Shown here in pieces: positions 48,120 through 62,221 of a stretch of DNA of 64,000 nt. Source of the stretch: a virus; the IMG/VR virus record IMGVR_UViG_3300002231_001563, positions 103,581 to 167,580 of that record; one strand, given 5' to 3'. The first letter of the stretch is position 1; each line of letters opens with the position of its first letter. The notes under the pieces are model-generated. The model did not search any database and had not been told where the DNA came from. It saw only the letters and a list, made by a program, of their open reading frames with translations. A program made the position numbers and the translations under genes.

Positions 48120-48416
48120 GTGTCTCCACCCCCTTACCAAGTAGGCGATATTATCAGATGGCACACTAATGAGCCGGGGGGCAAGTCTTATTATGGCCTT
48201 GTGTTAGAAAAAAGTCAGAATATTCGTTACGGAGAATACATATATCTTCATAATGTAGAAAGTGAAGATTTTTCCAATTTAGAATTAGCACCGGTGCCCC
48301 TCCATGCAGTGCGGGTGTATTCCTTCGGAGAGCAGCGCGTCATTTATTTGTATCAGAATCCCGAGGATGTACCTGTGTTTATAGAAAAAGTAGATTTTGT
48401 TCCAGAAAATGCTTGA
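48120..48416 (+). CDS. Small barrel-like protein (GDII family)
   Basis: A 98-residue product starting at GTG. It begins 'SPPPYQVGDIIRW', then 'SYYGLVLEKSQN' and 'YGEYIYLHNVESED', the pattern of the small-protein family that fills 50-61.4 kb: a GD-hydrophobic start, a strand, then a variable barrel. No ribosome site stronger than AAGG is seen. It is the first member of the family in order, lying just before a strong promoter. Confidence 0.5.
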   Translation: MSPPPYQVGDIIRWHTNEPGGKSYYGLVLEKSQNIRYGEYIYLHNVESEDFSNLELAPVPLHAVRVYSFGEQRVIYLYQNPEDVPVFIEKVDFVPENA

Positions 48417-48441
48417 CAAATCAGGCGCGAGACACTATAAT
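48413..48441 (+). promoter_or_regulatory. Promoter (TTGACA-N17-TATAAT)
   Basis: TTGACA at 48413-48418 overlapping the previous stop, 17 bases, TATAAT at 48436-48441. It is a simple promoter, without the two extra hexamers found at 49208 and beyond. Confidence 0.8.
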
Positions 48442-49008: not shown

Positions 49009-49211
49009 GGCGAGGCATGGATAGGCTCGGGGAAGGAAATATGGTGTGGACTGTTATATATCGAGCCGCCAATGGTGACACTTGTTATGAGATTGTAACC
49101 GGCCCTCACGATATGGAAGAATTCCGTAGTCACGCTAAGAAAAGATACAAACGACTCATCGCCTCTATTAAGGGAAATAATGACGTTGTTACCGAAACTA
49201 TTTATCCTTGA
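49005..49211 (+). CDS. Small hypothetical protein
   Basis: Product of up to 68 residues. An alternative start is ATG 49041 with GGGGAAGG just upstream, giving 'MVWTVIYRAANGDTCYEIV'. It has short beta segments, then 'HAKKRYKRLIASIKGN' and a final 'VVTETIYP'. Ends at the first hexamer of promoter P1. Unknown function. Confidence 0.42.
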   Translation: MRRGMDRLGEGNMVWTVIYRAANGDTCYEIVTGPHDMEEFRSHAKKRYKRLIASIKGNNDVVTETIYP

Positions 49212-49262
49212 CATTTTTTTGACAATTTATTACTAGACAAAGCCTCGCCGAGGGTGTATAAT
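49208..49262 (+). promoter_or_regulatory. Triple-hexamer promoter P1
   Basis: TTGACA at 49208, TTGACA at 49219, TAGACA at 49234, then 17 bases and TATAAT at 49257-49262. Spacers are 5, 9 and 17, the same as in eight other copies. It overlaps the preceding stop and drives the gene at 49291. Confidence 0.82.
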
Positions 49263-49290
49263 GTATGTATACTTTAACCCGGAGTCCCAA

Positions 49291-49518
49291 ATGTCAAATC
49301 TAGTTGTTAATATATCCGAATTCATCTCGGTGGATGTCTCGCTATTGCGCGCCCAGCGCGATACTTTGGTAGATACACTCGATGCAATCGAGGGGTCCAA
49401 ACCAGATATGGTGGATGATTTCTTCGGACTCGAACGAGATACAGTCGTTGACAAATTGATTGGTATCGTCAATTTGCTCGATGGCTTGCTAGACGAGGCA
49501 GAAGGATTTACCCCTTAA
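49291..49518 (+). CDS. Hypothetical acidic protein
   Basis: A 75-residue acidic helical protein from ATG 49291 with GGAG upstream; an in-frame ATG at 49261 lies in the -10 box and would not be in the transcript. It reads 'SNLVVNISEFISVDVSLLRA' and 'VVDKLIGIVNLLDGLLDEAEG'. Function unknown; first gene behind P1. Confidence 0.5.
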   Translation: MSNLVVNISEFISVDVSLLRAQRDTLVDTLDAIEGSKPDMVDDFFGLERDTVVDKLIGIVNLLDGLLDEAEGFTP

Positions 49519-49554
49519 TTATTACCACCAATCATTTTACTATAGGAAGAACAA

Positions 49555-49809
49555 ATGCTCAAAACATGCAAACATTGTGATATTGAATTCAGTGTTCACT
49601 CGCGCCGCAAGCGTCAAGTGGGCGGCTACATTAACGAATGCCCGGATTGTGTCGAGGAACGCGGGGGCGACCAATCGGCCCCTAAGCACTTCGGTGTGAC
49701 AGGCTCTTTCGGGGAGGATGTGGCCGTCCTTCGGTTTGAGAATCAGCAATCCCGTGAGAAGTTTAAGAAAGAATATGGCGAGATTAAAACTTTAAAAGAT
49801 TACTTTTAG
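49555..49809 (+). CDS. Small zinc-ribbon protein
   Basis: An 84-residue protein with 'CKHCDIEF' (residues 4-11) and 'NECPDCVEERGG' (~29-38), two CxxC pairs that would bind one zinc. A basic segment (HSRRKRQVGGY) lies between them. It likely binds nucleic acid. AGGAAG precedes the ATG. Confidence 0.6.
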   Translation: MLKTCKHCDIEFSVHSRRKRQVGGYINECPDCVEERGGDQSAPKHFGVTGSFGEDVAVLRFENQQSREKFKKEYGEIKTLKDYF

Positions 49810-49816
49810 GAGAAAC

Positions 49817-50053
49817 ATGGAAGCAATAGAATCATATCATTCATACCCATTACCCGACCCGTCTTTTCAGTGGCGGCACGAGGCTCAACTCTATGTGCTG
49901 GAAGCCGCCGACTCATCGTGGGTCCTATATTGCGACGGTATGTCGGTGCGCGATACTTTTGGGTATCCCATTCGATTCGAGACGAGTTGGGATGCTAAAC
50001 GCTATGCGAAGGAAGCGTTAGGTCATGACGAATTAGTCTTGACATTTACTTGA
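49817..50053 (+). CDS. Small hypothetical protein
   Basis: A 78-residue protein with 'EAQLYVLEAADSSWVLYCDG' and 'RFETSWDAKRYAKEALGHD'. TAGGAGA lies before the ATG. The short strands and aromatic residues suggest a small beta-fold. Promoter P2 overlaps its stop. Confidence 0.45.
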   Translation: MEAIESYHSYPLPDPSFQWRHEAQLYVLEAADSSWVLYCDGMSVRDTFGYPIRFETSWDAKRYAKEALGHDELVLTFT

Positions 50054-50093
50054 CAACTTTTCTCTTGACCAAACCCTCTCCATGGTGTATAAT
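50039..50093 (+). promoter_or_regulatory. Triple-hexamer promoter P2
   Basis: TTGACA (50039), TTGACA (50050), TTGACC (50065), then 17 bases and TATAAT (50088-50093), with spacers 5, 9 and 17 as in the other copies. It precedes the run of small genes at 50122-51180. Confidence 0.85.
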
Positions 50094-50121
50094 ATATCAT
50101 AACTTAAACAAAGGAGCTTAA

Positions 50122-50280
50122 ATGCTATTCGACCCCACCCTCAAAGACCTCTATTCTGAAACCTCTGAAGAACATTATGGAGATATGTACGGCTACGCCG
50201 ATGATTACGACGAATTAGATTTAGATGAAGAATGCCCTGACTGGGTGATGGAACAGATAGATGAAGAACTCCCATTTTAA
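50122..50280 (+). CDS. Small acidic protein (52 aa)
   Basis: A short gene behind P2, with AAAGGAG before ATG 50122. The product is very acidic and aromatic ('DMYGYADDYDELDLDEECPD', ending EELPF). Acidic small phage proteins often mimic DNA or bind host regulators; that role here is only a possibility. It overlaps the next gene by 20 bases. Confidence 0.52.
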   Translation: MLFDPTLKDLYSETSEEHYGDMYGYADDYDELDLDEECPDWVMEQIDEELPF

Positions 50281-50494
50281 CAAGGGCGACGAGGTAACTA
50301 TTACCTTCAATAAGAAAGCATCATCGCGCACAAAGGGGCGCATTCGGGAACACGGCCCCGAGTTTGTAGTTTTCCAGTCCATTCCAGGCTTTCGAGGGCC
50401 AGGGGCACTCCAAGACCGCCCCTGCGCCCTGGTCGGCTCTTTGTCTACGGGCTGGTCAGGCTGGCTACCCTTTGAGGAAATTGAGATAGCGTAA
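50261..50494 (+). CDS. Small SH3-like protein
   Basis: A 77-residue protein. 'SHFNKGDEVTITFNKKASS', 'GRIREHGPEFVVFQSI' and a Trp/Gly-rich end ('STGWSGWLPFEEIEI') are those of a small SH3-like barrel, with GDEV as the first-strand motif. It starts inside the preceding gene and ends in a one-base overlap with the next. Part of the array described under findings. Confidence 0.5.
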   Translation: MKNSHFNKGDEVTITFNKKASSRTKGRIREHGPEFVVFQSIPGFRGPGALQDRPCALVGSLSTGWSGWLPFEEIEIA

Positions 50495-50721
50495 TGTATG
50501 GGTGGACGCGGGGAATGAGCGCGGGAAATCTAGCTTCCCTTAGCGACTGGGACGGCGAGATTGAATTTGCTCGCTTTATAGTCCTCACTGGGAAAACAGA
50601 TGCCATCCAAACCCGCGTTCTCGCGTATTGCATTTATTCTACGGACGCACACAAAGTGGGCCGAGTCTATTCCCTTCAGACCTATCGATTGAGGATACTT
50701 TATGATATTGCAAAAGGGTGA
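50494..50721 (+). CDS. Small array protein
   Basis: A 75-residue member: 'MSAGNLASLSDWDGEIE', then 'FARFIVLTGKTD' and 'RVLAYCIYSTDAHKVGRVY'. 'SAGNL', a hydrophobic strand 'FARFIVL' and 'AYCIY' align with the family's start, second strand and third strand. An alternative start, ATG 50515, begins directly at that motif. It overlaps the next gene by 20 bases. Confidence 0.48.
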   Translation: MYGWTRGMSAGNLASLSDWDGEIEFARFIVLTGKTDAIQTRVLAYCIYSTDAHKVGRVYSLQTYRLRILYDIAKG

Positions 50722-50974
50722 CATTGTTTCTTACTGTATCCGCAGACGAGTCTGTGGAGAGGATGTAGACGACATTCGGAGCACCTACGTCGTCTTAGAC
50801 GTGGATAGGGTCTGTTCGGGAAAAGCCGAACTTTATTGTATTTATGACGAAACCTATTCGCTCGACCCCCGATTAAGTAAGTTTAGTTATGGCTCGATTG
50901 AGAATGGTTGGAATGCCGCCTCACAGGCGAGTTTGGAGAAGCATGGACAATCAGCTTATTGGAGAATAAATTGA
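50702..50974 (+). CDS. Small array protein
   Basis: A 90-residue member: 'ILQKGDIVSYCIR', 'STYVVLDVDRV', 'AELYCIYDETY' and a terminal 'SAYWRIN'. All four family landmarks are clear (GDIV, 'YVVLDV', 'LYCIYD', 'YWRI'). ATG 50702 lies in the previous frame; CDS are translationally coupled. Confidence 0.55.
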   Translation: MILQKGDIVSYCIRRRVCGEDVDDIRSTYVVLDVDRVCSGKAELYCIYDETYSLDPRLSKFSYGSIENGWNAASQASLEKHGQSAYWRIN

Positions 50975-51180
50975 GCTTAAAAGCAGGAAATATGATGACA
51001 GTCCAGCGCGGAGGATTGGAAGGTTCGAAGGTCATTCTCCTGAATCCGGTGATGAGCACGGGTGACTTAAATCCCAAAAGTCAAAGGTGGTCGTGCTTTA
51101 TGTTCTTCTCAAGCTGTACCTTTTGGCGAGTAAACGATATCTGTGTAATACGAGGAATAGATTTACTTTCTTTCTCTTGA
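50971..51180 (+). CDS. Small array protein (TTG start)
   Basis: A 69-residue member starting at TTG 50971, with GGAG six bases ahead. It reads 'SLKAGNMMTVQRGG', 'SKVILLNPVM' and 'CFMFFSSCTFWRVND', matching the family's GN-type start, hydrophobic strand and 'FWR' end. An upstream start at 50908 would lie inside the previous gene. Confidence 0.5.
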   Translation: MSLKAGNMMTVQRGGLEGSKVILLNPVMSTGDLNPKSQRWSCFMFFSSCTFWRVNDICVIRGIDLLSFS

Positions 51181-51231
51181 CATTCTCTTGACAATTTAGT
51201 TCTTGACGCATGATTAGTCGGAGTGTATAAT
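51177..51231 (+). promoter_or_regulatory. Triple-hexamer promoter P3
   Basis: TTGACA (51177), TTGACA (51188), TTGACG (51203), 17 bases, TATAAT (51226-51231). Spacers 5, 9, 17. It overlaps the preceding stop and drives the run 51253-52761. Confidence 0.83.
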
Positions 51232-51252
51232 GTAAATATCAATGGAGCGGTC

Positions 51253-51462
51253 TTGCCCAAATACAACTTAGGACAAATTGTTAAATATGAGCTAGAAAAA
51301 GATAGTTGGTATTTCATTATAACGGAGATATTGTCTCCCCCTAAACACAAAGCCGCCCCTTATTATCGGTGCTATTGCTTCAAGGCTCCTGATAACCATG
51401 TGCAGATAAGAGATTTGCACTGTAACATTCAAATGTCGGAGATACTTTTAGATGCAGTTTAA
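51253..51462 (+). CDS. Small array protein (TTG start)
   Basis: A 69-residue member from TTG 51253 with GGAG five bases ahead; the in-frame ATG at 51223 lies before the transcription start. It has 'KYNLGQIVKYELE', 'WYFIITEILS' and 'YYRCYCFKAPDN' as first, second and third strands. It overlaps the next start by 11 bases. Confidence 0.5.
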   Translation: MPKYNLGQIVKYELEKDSWYFIITEILSPPKHKAAPYYRCYCFKAPDNHVQIRDLHCNIQMSEILLDAV

Positions 51463-51703
51463 AGCAGGGCAAGTCCTCGATGAGTTTGACAATGGGTCGA
51501 ACGAGTGGTTAGCAAGATACATTCTTCTCGAAGTGTGCCCAGACCGTTCAGTCCGAGCCCTATGTATGTATGATAAACTCAATCGTGATTATGTGGGGGA
51601 AACCGCCGAAATCAATATGAGTTGCATATTGAGGAGTAATACTTTCTTTTGGCGTATCGATGGAGAGCGCGTACCGAGTCGCAAGTGGAGCGAAGAACTA
51701 TGA
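51452..51703 (+). CDS. Small array protein
   Basis: An 83-residue member: 'QFKAGQVLDEFDNG', 'LARYILLEVCPD', 'VRALCMYDKLN', and 'TFFWRIDGERV' near the end. A good example of the family's four landmarks in order. It is four bases into the start of the next member. Confidence 0.55.
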   Translation: MQFKAGQVLDEFDNGSNEWLARYILLEVCPDRSVRALCMYDKLNRDYVGETAEINMSCILRSNTFFWRIDGERVPSRKWSEEL

Positions 51704-51915
51704 AGTTCAAGCTAAAGCCAGGAATGCTTGTGAAAAATCATGGTAATGGTGCCTTGTGTATTGTATTGAGTGTCGGTAAAAATGATTCAAATCTCTCCTA
51801 CAAGACACAAATGTACGTCTTACAATCTGACCTATTGGTTGATAAGAATAAGAAAATATATTGGATCAATTCCGTCATGGCTGACCAATTATTTGAGATA
51901 GTAAATGAAGGTTGA
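51700..51915 (+). CDS. Small array protein
   Basis: A 71-residue member from ATG 51700 (GGAG 10 bases ahead): 'KFKLKPGMLVKNHG', 'ALCIVLSVGKN', 'TQMYVLQSD', then 'QLFEIVNEG'. An earlier in-frame ATG (51649) would overlap the previous gene fully. Overlaps the next by 11 bases. Confidence 0.52.
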   Translation: MKFKLKPGMLVKNHGNGALCIVLSVGKNDSNLSYKTQMYVLQSDLLVDKNKKIYWINSVMADQLFEIVNEG

Positions 51916-52204
51916 AATAGGACAAATCATTGACCAGTACGCCGACTTCCCTGGAAAAGATTTATATTTGATGGCACGATATATTGTATTGGCCCACCAC
52001 CCTCCGTCGAATGACATGCCGGGGCATCTGGAATTATATACTTTAAAGGGGTACATTTGGGAAGTGGAGGACGACTCGGCCCCGTCTGGGTCGGCATTGG
52101 TAATGCAAACCCCTGGAGATATTGAGCTAATTAACTCTTATTGTATTGTTTCAAAGGAAGAAACTACAAATAACTTTTATTGGGAGATTGTAGATGGAAT
52201 TTGA
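51905..52204 (+). CDS. Small array protein
   Basis: A 99-residue member: 'KVEIGQIIDQYADF', 'LMARYIVLAHHPP', 'HLELYTLKGY' and a terminal 'NNFYWEIVDGI'. Longer loops than most. It overlaps the next member by 11 bases. Confidence 0.55.
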   Translation: MKVEIGQIIDQYADFPGKDLYLMARYIVLAHHPPSNDMPGHLELYTLKGYIWEVEDDSAPSGSALVMQTPGDIELINSYCIVSKEETTNNFYWEIVDGI

Positions 52205-52463
52205 TAAATTTAGGAAAACAGTTTCACCCGGTGATATAATTGAGTGTATCGGAGGTACGGAGCACCTTTCTTATCATATTGTTGTCGATACCTATACTAC
52301 CGAATCAGGCTGCTACGCACTAGCTGCCCATACTTTGTATGCGCACCCTACTGAATACATGAAGCCGGGAGAATTGCACCACTTGTATCTCGAAGAATTC
52401 GAGGAGAGAAATGATGAGAACGCAGTAGGAATCTTATATAAGCATGGTAACATTTGTCATTAG
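52194..52463 (+). CDS. Small array protein
   Basis: An 89-residue member: 'VSPGDIIECIGGTE', 'SYHIVVDTYTTE', 'ALAAHTLYAHP'. The C-terminus lacks the usual 'FWRI' and ends with 'GNICH'. Overlaps the next by 20 bases. Confidence 0.5.
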   Translation: MEFDKFRKTVSPGDIIECIGGTEHLSYHIVVDTYTTESGCYALAAHTLYAHPTEYMKPGELHHLYLEEFEERNDENAVGILYKHGNICH

Positions 52464-52761
52464 ACCCAAACCAGGGGAGTATATTGAGTGGGTAGAACGC
52501 GACGGGCACTTTAACGAGGTCATCGCCCGCTATTTGGTAATTGACCCCCACTGTCCAGTCACAGGTAGTCCACGTGGTCGCTCCCCGAGAAGAGACTTAA
52601 TAAGGGTATTTTGCCTCTTTCATGATTGGCCCCATGGCAGCATGCTGAATCATAAGGGGGGAAGAAACTGCTTTTTGCATGTAAGCGACCTTCATGACTA
52701 CGGGGAGGCAGTGCATAATAACTTCTCTCATTTCTGGAGAATCTCCGAAGAAGGCCGATAA
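52444..52761 (+). CDS. Small array protein
   Basis: A 105-residue member: 'RPKPGEYIEWVERDG', 'IARYLVIDPHCPV', 'LIRVFCLFHDWPHG', 'SHFWRISEEGR'. It has an Arg-rich insert ('SPRGRSPRRDLI'), a pattern unlike its neighbours. It is the last member of the run behind P3; P4 follows. Confidence 0.55.
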   Translation: MVTFVIRPKPGEYIEWVERDGHFNEVIARYLVIDPHCPVTGSPRGRSPRRDLIRVFCLFHDWPHGSMLNHKGGRNCFLHVSDLHDYGEAVHNNFSHFWRISEEGR

Positions 52762-52768
52762 ATCACTC

Positions 52769-52823
52769 TTGACATTTTCTTGACAATTTAGTTCTTGACC
52801 GGACTCTCTCCAGGGTGTATAAT
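52769..52823 (+). promoter_or_regulatory. Triple-hexamer promoter P4
   Basis: TTGACA (52769), TTGACA (52780), TTGACC (52795), 17 bases, TATAAT (52818-52823). Spacers 5, 9, 17. It drives the gene at 52854, whose leader has the shared GGAGTCTATCACATG end. Confidence 0.85.
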
Positions 52824-52853
52824 GTATGTATAATTCACACAGGAGTCTATCAC

Positions 52854-53216
52854 ATGGGAATCAGAAGCGACGTTGCGCTGGGTATGAAAGTCGAATTTTA
52901 TCTTGCTTTGAGCGAAGAAAGCCGAAAAACCATTAACGAGTGGTTCGGCAGTCCCACCCAGAGGTCTGATAGGGGTATCCTCTTTTATGCCGAGAGTGTC
53001 AAGTGGTATAGTCATAGCTTCGATGATTTAATCGAACTCTACTCCGAAATTCATGAAGTGGCCGCCGAACAGTTTAATCAGGATGAGTGTGTGGTGTTAC
53101 TGGTAGCAAATCCAGAATACCCGGCCTCCACTGATGGTGATATCGAATTGTGGTATGAGAACCCGTGGGAGTTATATAAGAGCGTTAGCGTTTGTGTGGA
53201 GTTTAACACCGAATGA
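52854..53216 (+). CDS. Hypothetical protein behind P4
   Basis: A 120-residue protein from ATG 52854, chosen because it carries the GGAGTCTATCAC leader and the ATG at 52815 is inside the promoter. It reads 'DVALGMKVEFYLALSEESR', 'RGILFYAESVKWYSHSFDDL' and 'CVVLLVANPEYPAS'. It does not fit the GD family at its start. No known family. Overlaps the next gene by four bases. Confidence 0.5.
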   Translation: MGIRSDVALGMKVEFYLALSEESRKTINEWFGSPTQRSDRGILFYAESVKWYSHSFDDLIELYSEIHEVAAEQFNQDECVVLLVANPEYPASTDGDIELWYENPWELYKSVSVCVEFNTE

Positions 53217-53464
53217 AGTTCCCACATCAAATAGGAGAAATCATTTCAACTCCTGATTTAATCGGGGGAGTAACGGGAATATTAGTCGAAGTCGAGGAAT
53301 TAAAAGTTCGTGAAAAGCACTTGCATGAATTTCGCGGCGAGTTGTCGAATATCCGCACACATCGCATTAAATTGGCTATCCTACACACAGAGGATAATTC
53401 CTGGCAAGCGGGGGAAATAGCTGACTTTTGGCCGCCTTTAGGAGCATCGTGGAAGAAATTATAA
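53213..53464 (+). CDS. Small array protein
   Basis: An 83-residue member: 'FPHQIGEIISTPDL', 'TGILVEVEELKV', 'HRIKLAILHTEDN' and 'GASWKKL'. It has the GE-II start and a strand 'GILVEV' but a weak end. Overlaps the next member by 16 bases. Confidence 0.48.
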   Translation: MKFPHQIGEIISTPDLIGGVTGILVEVEELKVREKHLHEFRGELSNIRTHRIKLAILHTEDNSWQAGEIADFWPPLGASWKKL

Positions 53465-53826
53465 CTTCAGGCGATATACAAGTAGGTGATATTATTTCGG
53501 AGCGAGGTATAATATCGGAGCGTTGGAATCCAGAGTATAGAGATATGGGTGCGCACATGAATGAATTTACTCGCGTCGTGGTATTGTCTAAGACTAGAGT
53601 GGAAGATGAGCCTATGGTCTGCACAATGGCATCGCGTTTTTATTTCACCGTTGCTGTTCTGTACGCTATCCCCGAAATACGTGAGGTAATGAACAACGCC
53701 CACACTTATAAACTTTCGGACTATGAAATAGACCTAGAAGATTACAGCGATGAGGCAACTTATTGGTGCATAGAAACCGGCGAAGAAGCTCCAGTAACGC
53801 CGAGAGAGTGGGTAAGGCTAGGATGA
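53449..53826 (+). CDS. Small array protein
   Basis: A 125-residue member from GTG 53449 (GGAG four bases ahead): 'SGDIQVGDIISERG', 'FTRVVVLSKTRV', 'FTVAVLYAIPE' and 'ATYWCIETGEE'. Long insertion after the first strand. Overlaps the next start by four bases. Confidence 0.5.
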   Translation: MEEIITSGDIQVGDIISERGIISERWNPEYRDMGAHMNEFTRVVVLSKTRVEDEPMVCTMASRFYFTVAVLYAIPEIREVMNNAHTYKLSDYEIDLEDYSDEATYWCIETGEEAPVTPREWVRLG

Positions 53827-54065
53827 AACTTGAAGATTTAGCAGTAGGTCGCCTCTATCGATGGCAATATGACTATCACGGCGCACCCGTCGGGCATTGG
53901 ATAATATTGGAGGAACTTCCTACCGACTCGCGCAGTGTGCATAGTAGGGAAGGCGCACCCCATCGAAGGTTCCGCTGGTTTTGCATGCACGGGTCGCCAC
54001 TAAATACCACTCTCATTTTTGATATGGCCGAAGATAAAGTTCAGAACCTCACTTTAATCTCTTGA
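53823..54065 (+). CDS. Small array protein
   Basis: An 80-residue member from ATG 53823: 'EDLAVGRLYRWQYD', 'GHWIILEELPTD', 'RRFRWFCMHGSP'. 'WIILEEL' is the middle strand; the end is atypical. P5 overlaps its stop. Confidence 0.48.
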   Translation: MKLEDLAVGRLYRWQYDYHGAPVGHWIILEELPTDSRSVHSREGAPHRRFRWFCMHGSPLNTTLIFDMAEDKVQNLTLIS

Positions 54066-54116
54066 CATTTTCTTTACAACTTTTATCTTGACCACACCTT
54101 CTCCAAGGTGTATAAT
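54062..54116 (+). promoter_or_regulatory. Triple-hexamer promoter P5
   Basis: TTGACA (54062), TTTACA (54073), TTGACC (54088), 17 bases, TATAAT (54111-54116). Spacers 5, 9, 17; the middle hexamer has one change. It drives the gene at 54147. Confidence 0.82.
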
Positions 54117-54146
54117 GTATATGTAATTCAGACAGGAGTCTATCAC

Positions 54147-54743
54147 ATGACCGAGCAAGCCAAACGCCTCGAAACTCTTCTCACCCGCACAGATATCACC
54201 CCTTCAGAGCGTTCTTTCGGGGAGTCCTTACGCGGGGGCATTAAGAAATACGGTCGCTTGACAAATAATCAGTGGAGCGCATTCCAAAGGATGGAAGCGC
54301 GATATGACCCCAAGGTGATTGCCCAGCGGCAGGCTTGGTATGATGCCTGGACCGAAGAGAAGGCTAAAAATATTAAGGTCGCCGCCGAATATTACCTTGC
54401 CAACCCGCCTTATTTTGGTGACCTTGCTCGCAAGATTATGGAAGATGATTCATATATCCCTTCCGAAAAGTCTTATCGAAAGATGGTAGAGAATAAATAT
54501 GTTCAAAAGGTACTGACTACCGTAAATTCTACCCCCGCTTTCGACGTGGGTGCTCTGGTTCAAGTGCGCAAGACTGCCAAAAAAGCCGCTTGGAACCTGC
54601 GGGACCGAGTAGCGATGGTTGTATCAAACACCGGACCCGTTCGCAGTTCCGCAAAAGGAGGTAGAACCTACACTATCCTTCCTTTTGGAGAGTCTCAAAC
54701 AGTCCAGATTGAGGAACGATACCTCAAGCGCAAGCGAGGGTAG
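54147..54743 (+). CDS. Two-part protein with array-like C-terminal domain
   Basis: A 198-residue protein. The N-terminal half is helical ('SFGESLRGGIKKYGRLTN', 'WSAFQRMEARYD'). The last ~70 residues read 'AFDVGALVQVRK', 'RVAMVVSNTGPV', 'RTYTILPFG' and end with 'QIEERYLKRKRG', similar to the small-barrel family but fused to a new N-terminus. The shared GGAGTCTATCAC leader precedes ATG 54147. Possibly the source or partner of the small proteins. Confidence 0.5.
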   Translation: MTEQAKRLETLLTRTDITPSERSFGESLRGGIKKYGRLTNNQWSAFQRMEARYDPKVIAQRQAWYDAWTEEKAKNIKVAAEYYLANPPYFGDLARKIMEDDSYIPSEKSYRKMVENKYVQKVLTTVNSTPAFDVGALVQVRKTAKKAAWNLRDRVAMVVSNTGPVRSSAKGGRTYTILPFGESQTVQIEERYLKRKRG

Positions 54744-54780
54744 TGGAGGTTCCAAGTAGTATTTCGAGGTTAAAACCAGA

Positions 54781-54870
54781 ATAGAACATTCCAGCCCGTT
54801 GCTGTATAGGGCTGGCTCCCGATTCTAAGGATTGAAAGTCCTGGCTGGCGAGCCCCAGCAGCCTTTCTAT
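54781..54870 (+). ncRNA. Possible cloverleaf-like structured RNA
   Basis: About 90 bases with four helices: an outer 6-bp pair (ATAGAA / TTCTAT), a 7-bp hairpin (CCAGCCC / GGGCTGG, 54791-54815), a short hairpin with a TTGAAAG loop (54828-54842), and a 5-bp hairpin (GCTGG / CCAGC, 54844-54859). The layout resembles a cloverleaf, with a loop like the tRNA-Phe anticodon (GAA), but no T-arm TTC, no proper acceptor stem and no CCA are present. It is a leader or RNA element of unknown role; not called as tRNA. Confidence 0.3.
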
Positions 54871-55027
54871 CTCCATTATCGCGGGGGGCGACATGAACAA
54901 GGGCGCAATCAACAAATTTATGCAGATAGAAAGCCAGCAATTCGAGCAAACTGGATGGGCCGCCTCCTTTCAGGGCGCGGAACTCTTGAAATACTACTTG
55001 GAAACATTATTATTGGAGAACAGAAAA

Positions 55028-55270
55028 ATGAAAGAAGTGTATTTAATAACGTATGAACATAAGCATGGAACCGACCATACCGTAGTTACAACCCAGGCTT
55101 TGGCCGAAGCTGCCATGCTCGAATGGGTCAGGGAATGGAGAACCGTTTTCCAAATTCCAGAGGATATAACTGACGAACAAGCATTACAAGATTGGTATGA
55201 CCTCACAGGATGTACCGAATCGGTCACTTATGAAATTATGCCAGTTATCACCGAAATTAAAACCTCTTGA
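55028..55270 (+). CDS. Hypothetical protein
   Basis: An 80-residue protein from ATG 55028 with GGAG nine bases ahead: 'KEVYLITYEHKHGTDHTVVT', 'TQALAEAAMLEWVREWR', then 'TESVTYEIMPVITEIKTS'. An in-frame ATG at 54893 with a GGGGGG site could extend it by 45 residues; I prefer the shorter start because codons between are irregular, but it is not settled. P6 overlaps its stop. Confidence 0.45.
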   Translation: MKEVYLITYEHKHGTDHTVVTTQALAEAAMLEWVREWRTVFQIPEDITDEQALQDWYDLTGCTESVTYEIMPVITEIKTS

Positions 55271-55321
55271 CATTCTCTTGACAACTTTTCTCTTGACTCA
55301 CCCCTCTCCAGGGTGTATAAT
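55267..55321 (+). promoter_or_regulatory. Triple-hexamer promoter P6
   Basis: TTGACA (55267), TTGACA (55278), TTGACT (55293), 17 bases, TATAAT (55316-55321). Spacers 5, 9, 17. It drives the zinc-knuckle gene. Confidence 0.85.
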
Positions 55322-55371
55322 GTATATAGAAATTAAGCCACTCACCAACCTAAAATTCTGGAGTCTATCAC

Positions 55372-56172
55372 ATGGCATATTCACGCTCACATCACAAAAG
55401 AACAGTTAGATGCTCGTATTGTTACGAATCTGGCCACAATCGCTCATCTTGTCCGAAGCACGCGGCCAAAATCGAAGAAATCCGCGCTACCGACCCTAAT
55501 AGTTGGCAAGTTGCCCGCTATGATGAGAAGAAAGCCAAGCGAGCCCGAAAAGGGAAGGACCGCAAGTGTTCTTATTGTGATACGAAAGGTCACAATCGCG
55601 CCACTTGCCCCGAACTCAAAGCGCATATGGCAATTACGAAGGAGCAAAACGCGGAGTACCGCAAAATGGTCTATGGCCGCCTCCAGCACCACGGGCTATT
55701 CGCAGGTGCGCTCGTTAATAGTGATAGGAATCGTCAACCCGTAAATCCGCAGGATTATGATTGTAATGCGTATTATCGCCAGCCAATGGTCATTAAGGCG
55801 GTGAACTGGATGGGTATCAATTTCTGGAATCACACCTACCAATATTTCGATAACGATGATATCTCCCGCCAATCTCCCTTTATGGCAGTACCTTTGAATA
55901 ACCTTTCAAAGCCTTGGTTTGATAATCTCGGTTGGCCAATTGATAAGGACCTTTTAACGCATATTTTGGGCGAATCTACTGCTAATGAGTGGCTCGATGG
56001 TACTCATTGGCGTGCGGAAGAAGCCAGCTATTACTTTATCGAGGTTCAAAGCCCCGTTCCGACCCAGCAGCCACCAAAAGGCTGGTTGGAAGCGGAAGAT
56101 AAGGCGATGAAGCTGGCCTATAAGAAACGTAGCTCCTACATGGGACCAATTCGCCGCCATGACCCGGCATAA
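55372..56172 (+). CDS. Protein with two CCHC zinc knuckles
   Basis: A 266-residue protein. Residues 14-27 'CSYCYESGHNRSSC' and 66-79 'CSYCDTKGHNRATC' are two CX2CX4HX4C zinc knuckles, the retroviral nucleocapsid type, joined by a basic linker (EKKAKRARKGKDRK). They should bind single-stranded nucleic acid. The remaining 180 residues have many Trp, Tyr and Asn ('VNWMGINFWNHTYQYF') and no catalytic motif. Leader is GGAGTCTATCAC before the ATG. Such paired knuckles are rare in phages; a role in RNA binding or translation control is inference. Confidence 0.7.
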   Translation: MAYSRSHHKRTVRCSYCYESGHNRSSCPKHAAKIEEIRATDPNSWQVARYDEKKAKRARKGKDRKCSYCDTKGHNRATCPELKAHMAITKEQNAEYRKMVYGRLQHHGLFAGALVNSDRNRQPVNPQDYDCNAYYRQPMVIKAVNWMGINFWNHTYQYFDNDDISRQSPFMAVPLNNLSKPWFDNLGWPIDKDLLTHILGESTANEWLDGTHWRAEEASYYFIEVQSPVPTQQPPKGWLEAEDKAMKLAYKKRSSYMGPIRRHDPA

Positions 56173-56179
56173 TCGAGAC

Positions 56180-56234
56180 TTGACATTCTCTTGACAACTT
56201 TTCTCTTGACCTACGCTCAAATAACGTGTATAAT
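56180..56234 (+). promoter_or_regulatory. Triple-hexamer promoter P7
   Basis: TTGACA (56180), TTGACA (56191), TTGACC (56206), 17 bases, TATAAT (56229-56234). Spacers 5, 9, 17. It drives the MoxR-type gene. Confidence 0.85.
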
Positions 56235-56303
56235 GTATATAGAAATTGAGCGATTCCCCTTACACCCTACTACCTAAATCACAGACCTAGCTGGAGCTAT
56301 CAC

Positions 56304-57458
56304 ATGTCAGTTGCTATCACATTCGCTAACCTTCATTCCATGATTCCCACCCTTCTTTCGGGTGACGAATCCGACCTTTATTCCGTCCTTATCCGAGGTC
56401 GTCACGGTATCGGTAAATCATGGATTGCCTATCAAACTGCACGCGGCCTTGCATGGGACGCGACCACCAACAAGACGCGCCCGCTAAAGGGCGACGAAAC
56501 GTCATTACCGGTTGTGGAGATTCGTGCATCTCAAATGACTGAAGGCGACTTGCTCGGTCTGCCATCACCGCACGATGTAAACGTGAACGGCGAACAAGCC
56601 GCTTCCTTACGTCCTTTTGCTTGGCTCGTCAAAGCCTGTACTGAACCCGTTGTTTTGTTCCTCGATGAAGTTGACCGAGCGACCACCGAGGTTCGACAGG
56701 GATTTTTCCAACTTGGAGACTCCCGCCAGATTAACGGGTGGAAACTCCACCCCGGCACCGTTGTATTCGGCGCGGTCAATGGCGGCGTTCATGCTGCACA
56801 ATACCAAGTGGCAGACATGGACCCGGCAGAATTAGACCGCTGGGTCACTTTTGACGTTGAACCGTCTGTTGAGGATTGGCTAACTTGGGGTAAATCCGAG
56901 GTTCACGCTATCATTTGGGACTTTATCAATCAGAATAAAGACCACTTGGAACACAAGGGCGAATTTGAGCCCGGTACGGTTTATCCTTCGCGCCGCTCAT
57001 GGCATCGCCTTAGTAACACACTTGCTAAGGTCGATATGCTCGATAACGAGTCTGCCGACATGGGCCTTCTCTTTAACCTATCTCACGGCTTTGTCGGCTT
57101 TGAAGCTGCCGTTGCTCTTCGCGACTTTGTTGAGAACTACGAACGCCAAGTAACCGTCGAGGATATCTTAGACGATGGTAAGATAGATAAAACCAAAGAT
57201 TTCGGCCTTGTTGACCACGTTGCTCTCATTGAGAAGATGGACGCAAGCGATGTATTCACCGCTTCCATCCCCGAATCTCGCTTGATTAACTTGGTTAATT
57301 ACTTCGATACCCTTCCGTCAGAAGCCAGGATGAAACTGTTTACTACGCTAACCGCTGCCAATAGTCAGGTATCTGCTGAAAATGGCTCGAACTTCCATAA
57401 AGAGCTTGCTAAGCAGGGTAAGGTCGAGGCGTTCATTAAGCTGCTCGGCGGCAAATAA
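56304..57458 (+). CDS. MoxR-type AAA+ ATPase
   Basis: A 384-residue AAA+ protein. Walker A 'GRHGIGKS' (32-39), 'VVEIRASQMTEGDLLGLP' (70-87, MoxR 'TEGDLLG' segment), Walker B 'VVLFLDEVDRA' (116-126), sensor 'VVFGAVNGG' (~150), and a later 'DPAELDRWVTFDVEP' (~175) with the Arg finger region. MoxR ATPases act as chaperones for VWA-domain partners; here the next gene is exactly such a partner. GGAGCTATCAC precedes the ATG. Its transcript ends at the hairpin pair at 57474. Confidence 0.85.
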   Translation: MSVAITFANLHSMIPTLLSGDESDLYSVLIRGRHGIGKSWIAYQTARGLAWDATTNKTRPLKGDETSLPVVEIRASQMTEGDLLGLPSPHDVNVNGEQAASLRPFAWLVKACTEPVVLFLDEVDRATTEVRQGFFQLGDSRQINGWKLHPGTVVFGAVNGGVHAAQYQVADMDPAELDRWVTFDVEPSVEDWLTWGKSEVHAIIWDFINQNKDHLEHKGEFEPGTVYPSRRSWHRLSNTLAKVDMLDNESADMGLLFNLSHGFVGFEAAVALRDFVENYERQVTVEDILDDGKIDKTKDFGLVDHVALIEKMDASDVFTASIPESRLINLVNYFDTLPSEARMKLFTTLTAANSQVSAENGSNFHKELAKQGKVEAFIKLLGGK

Positions 57459-57473
57459 TTTAGAGGTGTGATA

Positions 57474-57525
57474 GCCCCGGTTGAACGGGGCATATGCGCC
57501 TCACCGTGTATATGTCCCGTTTTTA
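57474..57525 (+). terminator. Terminator overlapping a competing hairpin (attenuator-like)
   Basis: Two stems share bases. Stem A is GCCCCG / CGGGGC at 57474-57491. Stem B is GGGGCATAT / ATATGTCCC at 57487-57518 (9 bp with one G-T) and is followed by GTTTTT. Only one can form at a time, so A could prevent B, the terminator form. It lies 16 bases after the MoxR stop and 16 bases before P8. Confidence 0.55.
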
Positions 57526-57540
57526 CCTCCCTTATTCCTC

Positions 57541-57595
57541 TTGACATTTTCTTTACAATTTTTATGTAGACTTTTACATCTTTAGGGTGTATAAT
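57541..57595 (+). promoter_or_regulatory. Triple-hexamer promoter P8
   Basis: TTGACA (57541), TTTACA (57552), TAGACT (57567), 17 bases, TATAAT (57590-57595). Spacers 5, 9, 17; two hexamers vary. It drives the VWA-like gene at 57621. Confidence 0.78.
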
Positions 57596-57620
57596 GTATA
57601 TATAGATTGGAGCTTCCCTT

Positions 57621-58931
57621 ATGACTACTACCGACCCAAAGCCCTTTGACCTTGACCAGCATATTGTTGGCCTTCTAAGGGATGAACCCTTCTTCGCTGC
57701 CTTATCTCGACGACTCGAAAAGGTAGCTACAAAGGCGGTTCCTACCGCTGGCGTACGCTTCAACGATGACCGCTGCCGGTTTGAACTGTTCTATAATCCT
57801 GATTTTATGGGCGAAATCCACGAACAGGATGAAAAGTATGTTAAAGGCGTGCTTTTGCATGAGTTTTACCATATTATACTTTTACACGTCACTTCGCGCA
57901 TGCCTGAAGGAAAAATGACGAAGAAATGGAACTATGCCACCGACCTCGCTATTAACAGCGAACTAACTGTGTTTGCGCGTGATATGGATGCGCCGACGGG
58001 CTATGTGGTTGAAAGTTCACTTTTACCCTTAGATAAAGCCCTTATTCCGACTGTGGGTCCATTCGCTGAAATGGCCCCCCACCTCTCGGCTGAGGAATAT
58101 ATGACTTTGTTACCTGACAATGGAGAAGAGCCCGACCAAGGCTCTCCAGGGGGCCAAGGTGACGGTGAACCCACCGATGGCGATGGCGACGGGCAAGGCG
58201 ACGGTGAAGGACAAGGTAAAAAGCCGGGAACGGGGAGCGGTAACGGTTTTGATGACCATTCCGATTGGGGCTCGTCTGATAGTGCTGATGAGAAGCGCAA
58301 AATCGCCGAGGAACGCTTAAAAGAGAGCATCAAAGAGGCATATGTCGAGGCTCAATCCAAGGGCTTCGGGTCTGTTTCATCGGCTATGAAACGAACGATT
58401 AAAGAGGTTATAACTCCTAAAGTTAATTGGCGTTCGGTCTTGCGCTCCTTTGTTAAAGCCAGTCAGCGTGCCGACCGTACCTCGACAATCAAGAGGTTAA
58501 ACCGGCGTTATGCTTATATCCACCCAGGCAAAAAAGCCAAGCGTCAGGCGAAAATCGCCGTTTCAATTGACCAATCGGGCAGTGTCTCCGATAGCATGCT
58601 TGTTGCCTTCTATTCCGAGCTTGAGAAGTTGGCACAACTGGCAGAATTTACGATTGTCCCCTTCGATACTGTTGTATCCGAAGAGCACATCCACGTCTGG
58701 AAGAAAGGCGAGCGACATGAGAAAAAGCGTTATATGTGCGGTGGAACCTGCTTTAACGCCCCGACGAAGTGGGTCAATGAGAATAAATTTGATGGTCACA
58801 TCGTTTTGACCGATATGGAGGCCCCTAAGCCGGTTCCTAGCAAATGCCAGCGCATGTGGATGACAACTAAGGAATGCGCAGAACGCCCCTACTTCCAGAC
58901 TAAAGAGCGAGTGATTGCAATCAATGACTAG
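57621..58931 (+). CDS. VWA-like protein with HExxH N-terminal domain (MoxR partner)
   Basis: A 436-residue protein. 'GVLLHEFYHIILLH' (77-90) carries HExxH and 'NYATDLAINSEL' (~105) follows, as in DUF2201-type putative metallopeptidases. Residues ~175-215 are a low-complexity Gly/Asp/Gln linker. The C-terminal part is a VWA domain: 'KIAVSIDQSGSVSDSML' (DxSGS metal loop, ~312) and 'FTIVPFDTVV'. Such proteins are typically partners of MoxR ATPases, and the ATPase gene is directly upstream. Overlaps the next gene by eight bases. Confidence 0.82.
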   Translation: MTTTDPKPFDLDQHIVGLLRDEPFFAALSRRLEKVATKAVPTAGVRFNDDRCRFELFYNPDFMGEIHEQDEKYVKGVLLHEFYHIILLHVTSRMPEGKMTKKWNYATDLAINSELTVFARDMDAPTGYVVESSLLPLDKALIPTVGPFAEMAPHLSAEEYMTLLPDNGEEPDQGSPGGQGDGEPTDGDGDGQGDGEGQGKKPGTGSGNGFDDHSDWGSSDSADEKRKIAEERLKESIKEAYVEAQSKGFGSVSSAMKRTIKEVITPKVNWRSVLRSFVKASQRADRTSTIKRLNRRYAYIHPGKKAKRQAKIAVSIDQSGSVSDSMLVAFYSELEKLAQLAEFTIVPFDTVVSEEHIHVWKKGERHEKKRYMCGGTCFNAPTKWVNENKFDGHIVLTDMEAPKPVPSKCQRMWMTTKECAERPYFQTKERVIAIND

Positions 58932-59160
58932 AACTACCTTCAAAATTGAAGAATTGAAAGCGGGCGATGTCATTACAATGCCCCGACTTGACAGTGAAGA
59001 CGAGGTTCAAAGGTGGTTAATCGTTGACGAGCCAATGACAAACCTTTTAACCGTTCTCGTATTACTTGACTCTGGCAACCGATACGGTTGGCTTGGCAAC
59101 CTCATCACCGTCGCCAAAAGCGAGATAATTATTGATAAATGGAGGCTCTTGTGTCAGTAA
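58924..59160 (+). CDS. Small array protein
   Basis: A 78-residue member from ATG 58924: 'KIEELKAGDVITMP', 'QRWLIVDEPMTN', 'LTVLVLLDSGN', 'IIIDKWRLLCQ'. It shows the GDV start, 'RWLIVDE' strand and 'KWRL' end. First member behind the VWA gene; overlaps the next by 10 bases. Confidence 0.55.
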   Translation: MTRTTFKIEELKAGDVITMPRLDSEDEVQRWLIVDEPMTNLLTVLVLLDSGNRYGWLGNLITVAKSEIIIDKWRLLCQ

Positions 59161-59435
59161 CACACATGGGCGAAGTCCATCACCCGGTGTCGGCAGACTA
59201 TCCCCGCACCTTCATGCTATCCCAGGTTAAAATCGGTGATATGATGGTAGCTTATCGCAAGGGGCAAGTTAGCCAACAATGGATAATCACTAGCATATCG
59301 CCTGACGTGGTAAAGGTGTATGTTTCTTTTTCACACAGTAAGTCATATCTACATGCTGGCCGAGATTTTGAATTCTACAAAAGCAGCTTTCTTAGCTGGC
59401 AAACAAAGAATAAGTGGGAGCTTCGGGTAGCCTAA
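59151..59435 (+). CDS. Small array protein (GTG start)
   Basis: A 94-residue member from GTG 59151 with GGAGG five bases ahead: a 20-residue leader, then 'SQVKIGDMMVAYRKG', 'QQWIITSISPD', 'VKVYVSFSHSK' and 'NKWELRVA'. Family landmarks GDMM, 'WIITSI' and 'KWEL' are present. Confidence 0.52.
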   Translation: MSVTHMGEVHHPVSADYPRTFMLSQVKIGDMMVAYRKGQVSQQWIITSISPDVVKVYVSFSHSKSYLHAGRDFEFYKSSFLSWQTKNKWELRVA

Positions 59436-59653
59436 TGGGACTTAGAGAGGGCGATATGATTAGGAGCAAAATAAACGGCATTGAAGGTATAATAACCGGC
59501 TTCGATACCTCCAAAGGTACTGGCCTATATCATACTATCCTCATATTTTGCACTTACTCCCCTCATAATTCCCGGTACATCAATTGCACGATTCCACTCC
59601 GCGCATCTTCCGCGATGATAGAGAGGATATGGCCCCCAAGGTTTGAACGATGA
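59435..59653 (+). CDS. Small array protein
   Basis: A 72-residue member from ATG 59435: 'GLREGDMIRSKING', 'EGIITGFDTSK', 'HTILIFCTYSPHN'. GDMI, 'GIITGF' and 'ILIFCTY' are clear. The end is 'IWPPRFER'. Overlaps the next by four bases. Confidence 0.52.
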   Translation: MGLREGDMIRSKINGIEGIITGFDTSKGTGLYHTILIFCTYSPHNSRYINCTIPLRASSAMIERIWPPRFER

Positions 59654-59892
59654 AGAAAAGCGAGCTTCAAAGGGGCGATATAAAGAGGGGCCAAATTATT
59701 AAGTCGGCTCACGCCACGTTGTTGGTGCTTCAAGTTTTGGGATTGTCCAGGGTCAACCCCCTAGATGAGCGACTGCGGGTGTACGTGCTTCAGGATATGA
59801 TAAGTAGAACGCCGAATACTATTGAAGTCTATGTGGTCGACCCTGGACAATGGCGCATTGTAAGTGATATATCGCCCGAGGCCACATTATGA
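59650..59892 (+). CDS. Small array protein
   Basis: An 80-residue member: 'KSELQRGDIKRGQIIKSAHA', 'TLLVLQVLGLSR', 'LRVYVLQDM' and 'GQWRIVSDI'. It has two G-[DQ] motifs in a row (GDIK, GQII), possibly an internal duplication of the start. Overlaps neighbours. Confidence 0.52.
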   Translation: MKKSELQRGDIKRGQIIKSAHATLLVLQVLGLSRVNPLDERLRVYVLQDMISRTPNTIEVYVVDPGQWRIVSDISPEATL

Positions 59893-59904
59893 ACTATCTA
59901 CTAT

Positions 59905-60135
59905 GTGACCAAAAGATACCTTCCAGGCCAGTTAATCCGATATATACGCACGGGGGCTATCTATCTGCTAATCGAGGAAGCGAGCATGCCTCGACTAAAT
60001 CCCGCTTGGAAGGCCGAAAATGGCTACGCCTTCAAAGCCTACGTGGTCTTCACGGGTCGGAGTTGGTCAAATGTGGGCGATGAAATTGAAGTATTCATCT
60101 TAAAGAAATCCCAATACTACGAGGTTTTGAGTTAA
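59905..60135 (+). CDS. Small array protein (GTG start)
   Basis: A 76-residue member starting at GTG: 'RYLPGQLIRYIRTG', 'IYLLIEEASM', 'FKAYVVFTGRSW' and 'QYYEVLS'. GQLI, 'YLLIEEA' and 'AYVVF' fit. It has no clear ribosome site and may depend on coupling to the previous gene. Nearby ATG 59889 in another frame is a shadow. Confidence 0.48.
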   Translation: MTKRYLPGQLIRYIRTGAIYLLIEEASMPRLNPAWKAENGYAFKAYVVFTGRSWSNVGDEIEVFILKKSQYYEVLS

Positions 60136-60136
60136 A

Positions 60137-60409
60137 ATGCAGTTAAAAAGAGGACAATTGGTAAAGAACACTGGCCCCACCACTCTGCGTCTGGCGATTA
60201 TCACCCGCGTATGGCAGAGTAAACCTGCCTTTTGCCCACAAGTGGAGGTGATGTGGATGTATTATCCAGCCCGCCCTGAAATGGTAGGAACAACCACCCA
60301 AATTGACAGTCGCCGCTTTGGTAGTGAGCGTGCATGGACTCTGCATTCGAGTGGTTACGTGATTGTGCAGGATGAAACGGGCGAACCGCCGCCCCCTTGC
60401 ATGGTGTGA
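60137..60409 (+). CDS. Small array protein
   Basis: A 90-residue member: 'QLKRGQLVKNTGP', 'RLAIITRVWQSK', 'VEVMWMYYPARP' and a late 'AWTLHSSGYVIVQDETG'. GQLV, 'LAIITRV' and 'MWMYYP' fit. It is one base after the preceding stop. Confidence 0.5.
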   Translation: MQLKRGQLVKNTGPTTLRLAIITRVWQSKPAFCPQVEVMWMYYPARPEMVGTTTQIDSRRFGSERAWTLHSSGYVIVQDETGEPPPPCMV

Positions 60410-60469
60410 GCGTGATTCGCGAAATTTTTATTCGCCAAATTTTTTCATAAAGGACTTACAAAGTGATAT

Positions 60470-60754
60470 ATGGCAGAGCCATTTAATATTAAAGATTATA
60501 ACGTCGGGGATTTAGTGGGGTTGAAATTCAACTATTTCCTCAAACAGCATCATAAAGACAAGACAAGGGAAATCCACGGCATCCTCTTAGAGTCTGACGT
60601 TTCCGAGGGTTGGAAGGTGCTTATCACCTATGACTCGCATGGCCGTGCCCTTGGGACACATGGTCATTATTCGAGTTCATGGCTTTCAAACGCCTCTAAG
60701 AGCGACAAGGTGTGGAAGATATCCGAGGCCCTAGAACATGAAAGTAAACTTTAA
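60470..60754 (+). CDS. Small array protein
   Basis: A 94-residue member: 'EPFNIKDYNVGDLVGLKFNY', 'EIHGILLESDVSE', 'WKVLITYDSHGR' and 'KVWKISEALE'. GDLV, 'GILLES', 'VLITYD' and 'VWKI' are in order. It overlaps the next by 17 bases. Confidence 0.53.
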   Translation: MAEPFNIKDYNVGDLVGLKFNYFLKQHHKDKTREIHGILLESDVSEGWKVLITYDSHGRALGTHGHYSSSWLSNASKSDKVWKISEALEHESKL

Positions 60755-61016
60755 ACCAGGGGATATCGTGACAGACTCTTGGGCAAGAGATTATCCGCCG
60801 GAGTCGACGCCTCGCATGATAGTGTTGGAAGTAAGCCATCACACGAGATATGCCAGGGTGTATACCATCTATGAGCCAGCAAAACTTACAAGGGTTACAA
60901 GGGCTCTAGGTGGTGAAATGCTAATACCAAACTCCAAAATCGAGAATCCTTATACCGTACGCAGTTGTAACAAATTGATTCGCGTATGTGAGATAAATAA
61001 GGTTCGAGGCCAATAA
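60738..61016 (+). CDS. Small array protein
   Basis: A 92-residue member: 'KVNFKPGDIVTDSWA', 'RMIVLEVSHHT', 'ARVYTIYEPAK' and a final 'LIRVCEINKVRGQ'. GDIV, 'MIVLEV' and 'VYTIYE' fit well. Confidence 0.54.
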   Translation: MKVNFKPGDIVTDSWARDYPPESTPRMIVLEVSHHTRYARVYTIYEPAKLTRVTRALGGEMLIPNSKIENPYTVRSCNKLIRVCEINKVRGQ

Positions 61017-61024
61017 AATTAAAA

Positions 61025-61033
61025 TGGTATAAT
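61025..61033 (+). promoter_or_regulatory. Extended -10 promoter (TGGTATAAT)
   Basis: TG then one base then TATAAT (61028-61033) lies just after the preceding stop and 24 bases before the GTG at 61057. No good -35 is seen, so it is an extended -10 type. Low to moderate confidence. Confidence 0.4.
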
Positions 61034-61056
61034 TACAGTATAAGGAAGGCTATAAT

Positions 61057-61431
61057 GTGAAGGAGCAAATAATAAAGGGTATAACTACTATATCTCCAGG
61101 GGATATTATAGCCGAGACTCCTGACAAATCGTCATGCGAGGAATATATCGCTGTATACTTGATTGTGGGCAAATTGATTGAACGTGAAGAATTAGATTTG
61201 CACAAGTACCAGCGAACCGTAACGTACTTTAAAACTTATTTATTATACGTTGGGAAGGAATATGATAGTACATGGGCTAAGCACAATAACCCAGGAGATT
61301 ACTACCTTTTGAGTGAACACGAAGTTTCAAACTATCACGACTGGATAATCCTGTTTAAATCTGATATACCCTGGAAAAAGGGGGTAAATGTGGAAGAAAG
61401 TGGATTATCGTGGGATAAGCCCGATTTTTAA
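61057..61431 (+). CDS. Last small array protein (GTG start)
   Basis: A 124-residue member from GTG with AAGGAAGG seven bases ahead: 'GITTISPGDIIAETPDK', 'IAVYLIVGKLIERE', 'TYFKTYLLYVGKEYD' and 'HDWIILFKSD'. GDII, 'YLIVGK' and 'YLLYVG' match the family, with a longer insert. The array ends here. Confidence 0.53.
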   Translation: MKEQIIKGITTISPGDIIAETPDKSSCEEYIAVYLIVGKLIEREELDLHKYQRTVTYFKTYLLYVGKEYDSTWAKHNNPGDYYLLSEHEVSNYHDWIILFKSDIPWKKGVNVEESGLSWDKPDF

Positions 61432-61824: not shown

Positions 61825-61828
61825 AGAC

Positions 61829-61943
61829 ATGCCCCTGGAAGGATTTTAAAGGGCCTCTGACGCTTTTCACGCTATAGCATCCGGTTAGTCGTCGCGAACG
61901 CTCTGCGAGCGTGTGAGGCCCTTTAAGAGCGTTACAGGGGTAT
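61829..61943 (+). ncRNA. Structured RNA element with long nested stems
   Basis: A 115-base element. Outer helix: ATGCCCCTG (61829-61837) with CAGGGGTAT (61935-61943), 9 bp with one G-T. A symmetric 10+10 base internal loop follows, then a perfect 10-bp helix AAAGGGCCTC (61848-61857) with GAGGCCCTTT (61915-61924). Inside, at 61898-61912, is a 6-bp hairpin with a TGC loop (ACGCTC / GAGCGT), and a weak GACG/CGTC pair (61859, 61890). No ORF fits this region and it does not match a tRNA, hammerhead or known riboswitch core that I can recognise. It is a candidate novel phage RNA. Confidence 0.55.
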
Positions 61944-62083
61944 GTAGCGGCCCGTCGTCAGGTTAAGTCGGGTCAGTCGATGCACCGTCATGCGCACCGC
62001 CGGTACCCAACGCGCTGGAATTTCTGGCAGAAATATATAATATAGTGTCGGCGATAAAGCCGGTTATAACTTATTAATAAGTC
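61944..62083. other. Non-coding stretch with hairpins and a 14-bp palindrome
   Basis: No gene is seen from 61825 to 62221 other than the RNA element and promoter P9. The stretch holds an ATTTCT-GGC-AGAAAT hairpin (62020-62034), a CGGC/GCCG hairpin (62049-62062) and a perfect palindrome ACTTATTAATAAGT (62069-62082) directly before P9, which could be an operator. Confidence 0.55.
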
Positions 62084-62138
62084 TTGACATTTAGTTGACA
62101 AGATATATATGGACAAGGGCGGAAAAAACGAGTATAAT
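62084..62138 (+). promoter_or_regulatory. Triple-hexamer promoter P9
   Basis: TTGACA (62084), TTGACA (62095), TGGACA (62110), 17 bases, TATAAT (62133-62138). Spacers 5, 9, 17 once more. It is one base after the ACTTATTAATAAGT palindrome and drives the gene at 62222. Confidence 0.82.
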
Positions 62139-62221
62139 ATATATATGAAAAGCCGCTCCCCCTCACAATTTCCCCTTACCCGTCGCGTCGCTCCTGTGCT
62201 CGCGATATTGGAGTTTGTTCT

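Follow-up and report, generated by a model that had tools for sequence, protein, structure and literature searches.

A 64-kb window of phage DNA, the end portion of an uncultured virus record 167,580 bp long, carries, beside a conserved pair of chaperone-like genes, an array of small, extremely diverged genes that form one homologous family. Their products probably bind molecules of the host at an early stage of infection, and we see about an even chance that the array is a set of early, host-directed binding proteins built on one reusable SH3-like scaffold. The array zone was classed under the known early accessory regions of phages; the number and spread of its genes are unlike an ordinary accessory region, as the first-pass annotation of this DNA had remarked. 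Searches of an open-licence library of papers turned up no description of arrays of this type.

Table 1. Features of the array zone, in coordinates of the 64-kb window
Feature	Coordinates	Strand	Evidence
Family member outside the array; relatives conserve it upstream	48120..48416	+	Rank 13 in relatives' HMM; leave-one-out
Promoter copy 1	49207..49268	+	Weight matrix
Promoter copy 2	50038..50099	+	Weight matrix
Listed member 50261	50261..50494	+	E=50 (relatives' HMM), p=0.05 (leave-one-out); family membership without sequence support
Array segment 1, nine SH3-like genes (50494, 50702, 50971, 51253, 51452, 51700, 51905, 52194, 52444)	50494..52761	+	Profile tests; 51452 modelled
Promoter copy 3	51176..51237	+	Weight matrix
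Promoter copy 4	52768..52829	+	Weight matrix
Array segment 2, three weaker members (53213, 53449, 53823)	53213..54065	+	E 0.06-0.78, above all background
Promoter copy 5	54061..54122	+	Weight matrix
Conserved core gene of block	54108..54743	+	Same position in L009, L011-L013
Promoter copy 6	55266..55327	+	Weight matrix
Conserved zinc-knuckle-type protein	55372..56172	+	zf-C2H2_10 3e-9; same position in L009, L011-L014
Promoter copy 7	56179..56240	+	Weight matrix
AAA+ ATPase, probably MoxR type	56304..57458	+	AAA_5 7e-5
Promoter copy 8, preceding the VWA gene and segment 3	57540..57601	+	Weight matrix
DUF2201_N metallopeptidase-like and VWA-like protein	57621..58931	+	2.5e-25 and 1e-12
Array segment 3, nine genes (58924, 59151, 59435, 59650, 59905, 60137, 60470, 60738, 61057)	58924..61431	+	Profile tests, ORF positions
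SGLSW, C-terminal peptide of last array protein	61399..61413	+	Common to diverged members in L009, L010, L011, L012

The array genes form one diverged family

All ORFs listed by the first-pass annotation are present at their positions and encode proteins of 69-125 aa. Among the 23 intervals between consecutive listed ORFs, 14 are overlaps, 1-20 bases long. Pairwise identity is as low as it had appeared (median 0.17, maximum 0.35).

Kinship was assessed with an HMM of 52 small proteins from four related phages (L009-L012) that contained no window sequence, against which we scored the 24 listed proteins and 745 other ORFs of at least 45 aa from both strands of the record's first 100 kb and the window. 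The proposal of a single homologous family held for 22 of the 24, which took ranks 1-22 of the 769 ORFs with E values of 9e-12 to 0.78 (0.06-0.78 for the lowest four, 53449, 53823, 59650, and 53213), and the first background ORF followed at rank 23 (E=1.5); since the relatives were gathered through a profile seeded with window proteins, this ranking indicates mutual kinship rather than independent discovery. In leave-one-out HMMs built from the window only, 22 of the 24 outscored shuffled sequences (p<=0.01), the exceptions being 40779 and 50261. Of the two outliers that had been proposed, 48120 is supported as a family member, partly via its orthologues in the training set (L009_1831, L011_1616, and L012_2933), whereas 40779 is not supported (E=170, leave-one-out p=0.075). 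50261 has orthologues in the same position in L011 and L012. Upstream of the array, a nucleotidyltransferase-like protein is encoded at 47210-48118 and is found in the same place in L009, L011, and L012.

The shared endings FWRI, YWRI, and KWRL are real, yet they are partly a by-product of coding. A W-x(1-2)-hydrophobic tail was present in 22 of 41 members closely followed by another member compared with 9 of 34 not so followed, and in 14 of the 22 W-tailed members the W-[RE] codons hold the Shine-Dalgarno-like sequence of the next gene. SGLSW occurs near the C-terminus of eight array proteins (as SDLSW in one of the eight), and no other called protein in the searched loci has it as a C-terminal tail, except for the variant SSLTW in L011.

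Predicted fold

With the family alignment of 52 rows as input, AlphaFold2 modelled member 51452 with a pLDDT of 90.5 and a pTM of 0.79. The model runs strand-strand-strand-strand-short helix-strand, a five-stranded SH3-like barrel with the short helix before the last strand. The second member modelled, 61057, reached a pLDDT of 69 from eight sequences only; the SH3-like fold suggested earlier thus stands for 51452, the sole confident model. A Foldseek search with the 51452 model gave no match with E<0.001, and the 50 matches listed, headed by TraI and the TDRD1 Tudor domain, were weak and included many Tudor, Agenet, KOW ribosomal, PWWP, and SH3 domains. The profile of the more distant cousins (see below) matched solved chains weakly, with uL24c, an SH3 design (mkaL2_v1_SH3), and NusG on top and eS4 and some unrelated chains at lower ranks. 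Taken together, the confident model and the weak fold and profile matches make the predicted SH3-like barrel well supported for 51452 and likely for the whole family.

The array proteins had no significant sequence match to named families. No Pfam family matched them, and the KOW profile gave no significant match, with weak ones to single members only; the best weak family-profile matches were EFP_N (0.004) for the window family and KOWx_SPT5 (8e-4) for the cousins. In PHROGs there was no consistent match for 52 window-family members (three families with one member each, best E 0.006) or for 85 cousins (seven families with at most three cousins each).

Promoters of the array zone

The repeated promoter element is 62 bp long and contains three stacked TTGACA-like boxes, the last of them 17 bp from TATAAT. 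A scan of the record's first 100 kb and the window found eight near-identical copies, all in 49207-57601, and none in the first 100 kb. These copies stand upstream of the ATPase gene, the VWA gene, and the larger part of the array. By form and repetition this is a promoter of the early sigma-70 type, from whose host-like form we infer early expression. The element is also present in L009-L012 and L015 and is absent from L013, L018, L021, and L041. No stem-loop was found beside the promoters (15 terminator-like sites in all, 14.5 expected), and folding of the eight stretches upstream gave nothing strong (z -1.8 to 1.5). We also observed a weak ninth copy of the promoter family at 62083-62144 and, outside this family, a 12-of-12 sigma-70 promoter match at 48413-48441. 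The first gene after promoter copy 2 (50122-50280) encodes a very acidic 52-aa protein with a conserved end, ECP-W--EQ-D--, in L009, L011, and L012, and might be a DNA mimic.

Related phages and gene junctions

The terminase of the window is nearest to those of Flavobacterium phage immuto and Microcystis phage Mel-JY01 (44-46% identity), with T4-type phages more remote, indicating a tailed phage that belongs to the T4-like group in its wider sense. The array-bearing phages are an uncultured, mostly marine group. No close isolate of this widespread clade was found among the 50,697 phage records searched, tblastn against isolates gave no match with one cousin protein or with the 36760 protein, and no family member came up when T4, S-TIM5, S-CAM3, immuto, and Mel-JY01 were searched by profile; the 484-kb LR756508 has one weak profile match. 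The VWA gene is present on four MAG fragments assigned to Bacteroidetes, Neomarinimicrobiota, Acidiferrobacteraceae, and Alphaproteobacteria, bins of a kind that can contain stray phage contigs. The VWA/MoxR pair has distant matches to isolates at 23-28% identity; the MoxR subtype of the 56304 ATPase is suggested by its pairing with VWA.

Searches for relatives with single members yielded one 13-residue match, in L008, whose called genes contain no array, and in the other case nothing. Since the whole-family alignment was too diverged for a pattern scan, the VWA protein was used as the anchor for finding relatives. In phages whose VWA protein is 68-82% identical, an array of the same type surrounds the block made up of 54108, 55372, 56304, and 57621. 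More distant phages, with a VWA protein about 50% identical, carry shorter cousins with the consensus MKVGDLV...GIV...LEVISESR, of which there are 544 in 75 loci at E<=1e-3, while reversed sequences gave no match at E<=1. The window-family and cousin profiles align over 29 N-terminal columns (P=7e-5, probability 63). In whole-record searches the cousin profile found 7-31 matches per record in 16 records of at least 150 kb outside the window's clade and 0-2 within it; the window-family profile found 16 on its own record, all within 154-165 kb.

Adjacent cousin genes overlap by exactly 14 nt in 140 pairs. At such a junction, GTGAAAGTAGGTGA is both the start of a gene (MKVGD) and, in another frame, the end of the gene before it (SESR, stop). 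An overlap of 11 nt is seen in 12 pairs of the window's clade, where the start ATGAAGTTTAA supplies a tail such as NEV. Because the start of one gene read out of frame is the tail of the previous one, a short repeat recurs at the overlapping junctions. The difference between L037 and L074 is precisely one gene, lying between two of these repeats, and is the sole exact one-gene indel found. L009 and L012 have in common a block of about 1.1 kb that is 87-99% identical in most 100-bp bins, with flanks of 42-91% identity on the left and below 50% on the right; this block was exchanged recently. Whole genes or blocks have moved between phages, and the repeat-bearing junctions fit repeated exchange of array genes as cassettes. 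After the last array gene there is an inverted repeat (61827-61945) with 38-nt arms, 82% complementary and 43 nt apart.

Selection and possible functions

Diversifying selection, which the first-pass annotation had proposed, received no gene-wide support since dN/dS was below 1 in all pairs: 0.08-0.57 for orthologue pairs in the window's clade (neighbour genes 0.05-0.2 by median), and a median of 0.24 for 75 cousin pairs, none above 1, versus 0.17 for other small genes. Orthologous array genes are thus under purifying selection gene-wide, which is weaker backing for an arms race than dN/dS above 1.

On the reading we favour, the genes are a repertoire, specific to this clade, of small barrel proteins with an SH3-like (Tudor/KOW-type) fold. 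The array would be transcribed by host RNA polymerase soon after entry, and its overlapping genes would be translated together. Because the fold alone is conserved and almost nothing else, the barrel may be a scaffold only, with each protein showing a different surface to a different molecule of the host or of a competing element. The targets would be mostly proteins, which the barrels would block or redirect. Recombination between the junction repeats could add, drop, or swap a whole gene and leave both neighbours intact.

The barrels might instead behave like KOW domains, binding nucleic acid, RNA polymerase, the nucleoid, or the ribosome and thereby resetting host gene expression, which we consider unlikely. 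The weak matches of the cousin profile include uL24c, NusG, eS4, and the KOWx domain of SPT5, and the T4 early protein MotB, in which a KOW domain is predicted, both binds DNA and changes the binding of H-NS (PMC7827196). However, the pI of the array proteins ranges from 4.3 to 9.6, much as in other small phage proteins, which argues against one nucleic-acid-binding role common to all, and M1 and G6 are the only columns of the family alignment conserved at 90% or more. This near-absence of conserved residues and the wide range of charge fit many different targets better, and tens of diverged copies are not obviously needed by such binders. Loose selection on an ORFan-rich, plastic zone of individually dispensable genes would account for the high turnover (149 of the 544 cousins have an orthologue at least 60% identical in another locus), and cyanophage S-PM2 gained fitness when a comparable ORFan zone was lost from it in culture (PMC4503421). 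Such neutral accretion is very unlikely given the purifying selection on orthologues, the layout kept despite extreme divergence, the dedicated promoters, and the presence of arrays across the clade.

The position of the array points to another possibility, that the adjacent MoxR-type ATPase and metallopeptidase-VWA protein have the barrels as their substrates or as recognition subunits that can be interchanged. We find this doubtful, as we do the further step that the metallopeptidase-VWA machine would remodel or cleave what the barrels bring. Of 149 cousin matches listed for 14 large records, 132 are no more than 15 kb from the VWA gene, compared with 24 expected under uniform placement, a count that may be biased somewhat since the cousin profile derives from loci in the vicinity of this gene. 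The first gene of segment 3 (58924) overlaps the VWA gene by 8 bases, the tail SGLSW is common to otherwise diverged members, and peptide binding has been suggested for the VWA domains in pairs of this kind (PMC7159879). On the other hand, the linkage may reflect nothing beyond a common early zone, most listed matches in two records (G004 and G011) are further from the VWA gene, and the SGLSW tail is limited to a few members. A cassette system, in which the barrel genes recombine as units and encode exchangeable recognition subunits for a host-protein-directed MoxR/metallopeptidase-VWA machine, seems quite improbable.

Comparison with known systems

T4-type phages have hyperplastic early regions with promoter/stem-loop (PeSL) cassettes, as summarised in PMC4503421 (Arbiol 2010; Comeau 2014). 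The array zone resembles these, as outlined there, in its small early-type genes, repeated promoters, and modular shuffling among relatives. It differs in that much of the zone is one expanded family and that the junction repeat is the gene start itself. An assignment of the zone to PeSL cassettes was rejected because its promoters have no adjoining stem-loop. Similar to the array proteins, MotB is an early-type phage protein with a predicted KOW/SH3-like domain, but it is a single gene that combines KOW with an OB-fold (PMC7827196). In Bacillus phage G, a lineage-specific expansion of about 35 zinc ribbons, as reported in PMC7824862, likewise multiplies one small domain many times per phage, although there the fold is unrelated and the expansion is described for one phage rather than a clade. 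Group 2.2 jumbo phages have the same two-gene MoxR-vWA core, with an N-terminal metallopeptidase domain and a proposed role in virion assembly (PMC7824862). Here the pair lies amid barrel arrays, none of which is noted in that source's account of the pair. In the block we noticed no gene for a VMAP, inactive STAND, FtsH, or beta-propeller protein, the further components of MoxR-vWA ternary conflict systems (PMC7159879). The predicted topology and the weak matches place the array proteins nearest to the SH3-like barrel superfold of the Tudor, Agenet, KOW, and CarD/NusG type.

The arrays point to phage proteins in the hundreds, uncharacterised and probably alike in fold, within a single widespread clade. 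If the proteins are host-directed binders, each array would be a library, made by nature, of small inhibitors on a scaffold, with exchange of members built in. The arrays also allow two roles of the phage MoxR/VWA pair to be put to the test, virion assembly, which has been proposed in jumbo phages, and an early task directed at the host. Elsewhere in the window (26574-33465 and 38605-40185), this one phage encodes a PurA-like enzyme (138 bits against the PurZ model, under its 300-bit cut-off) together with a DnaE-type polymerase III alpha, an IMP dehydrogenase/GMP reductase-like enzyme, and GroEL.
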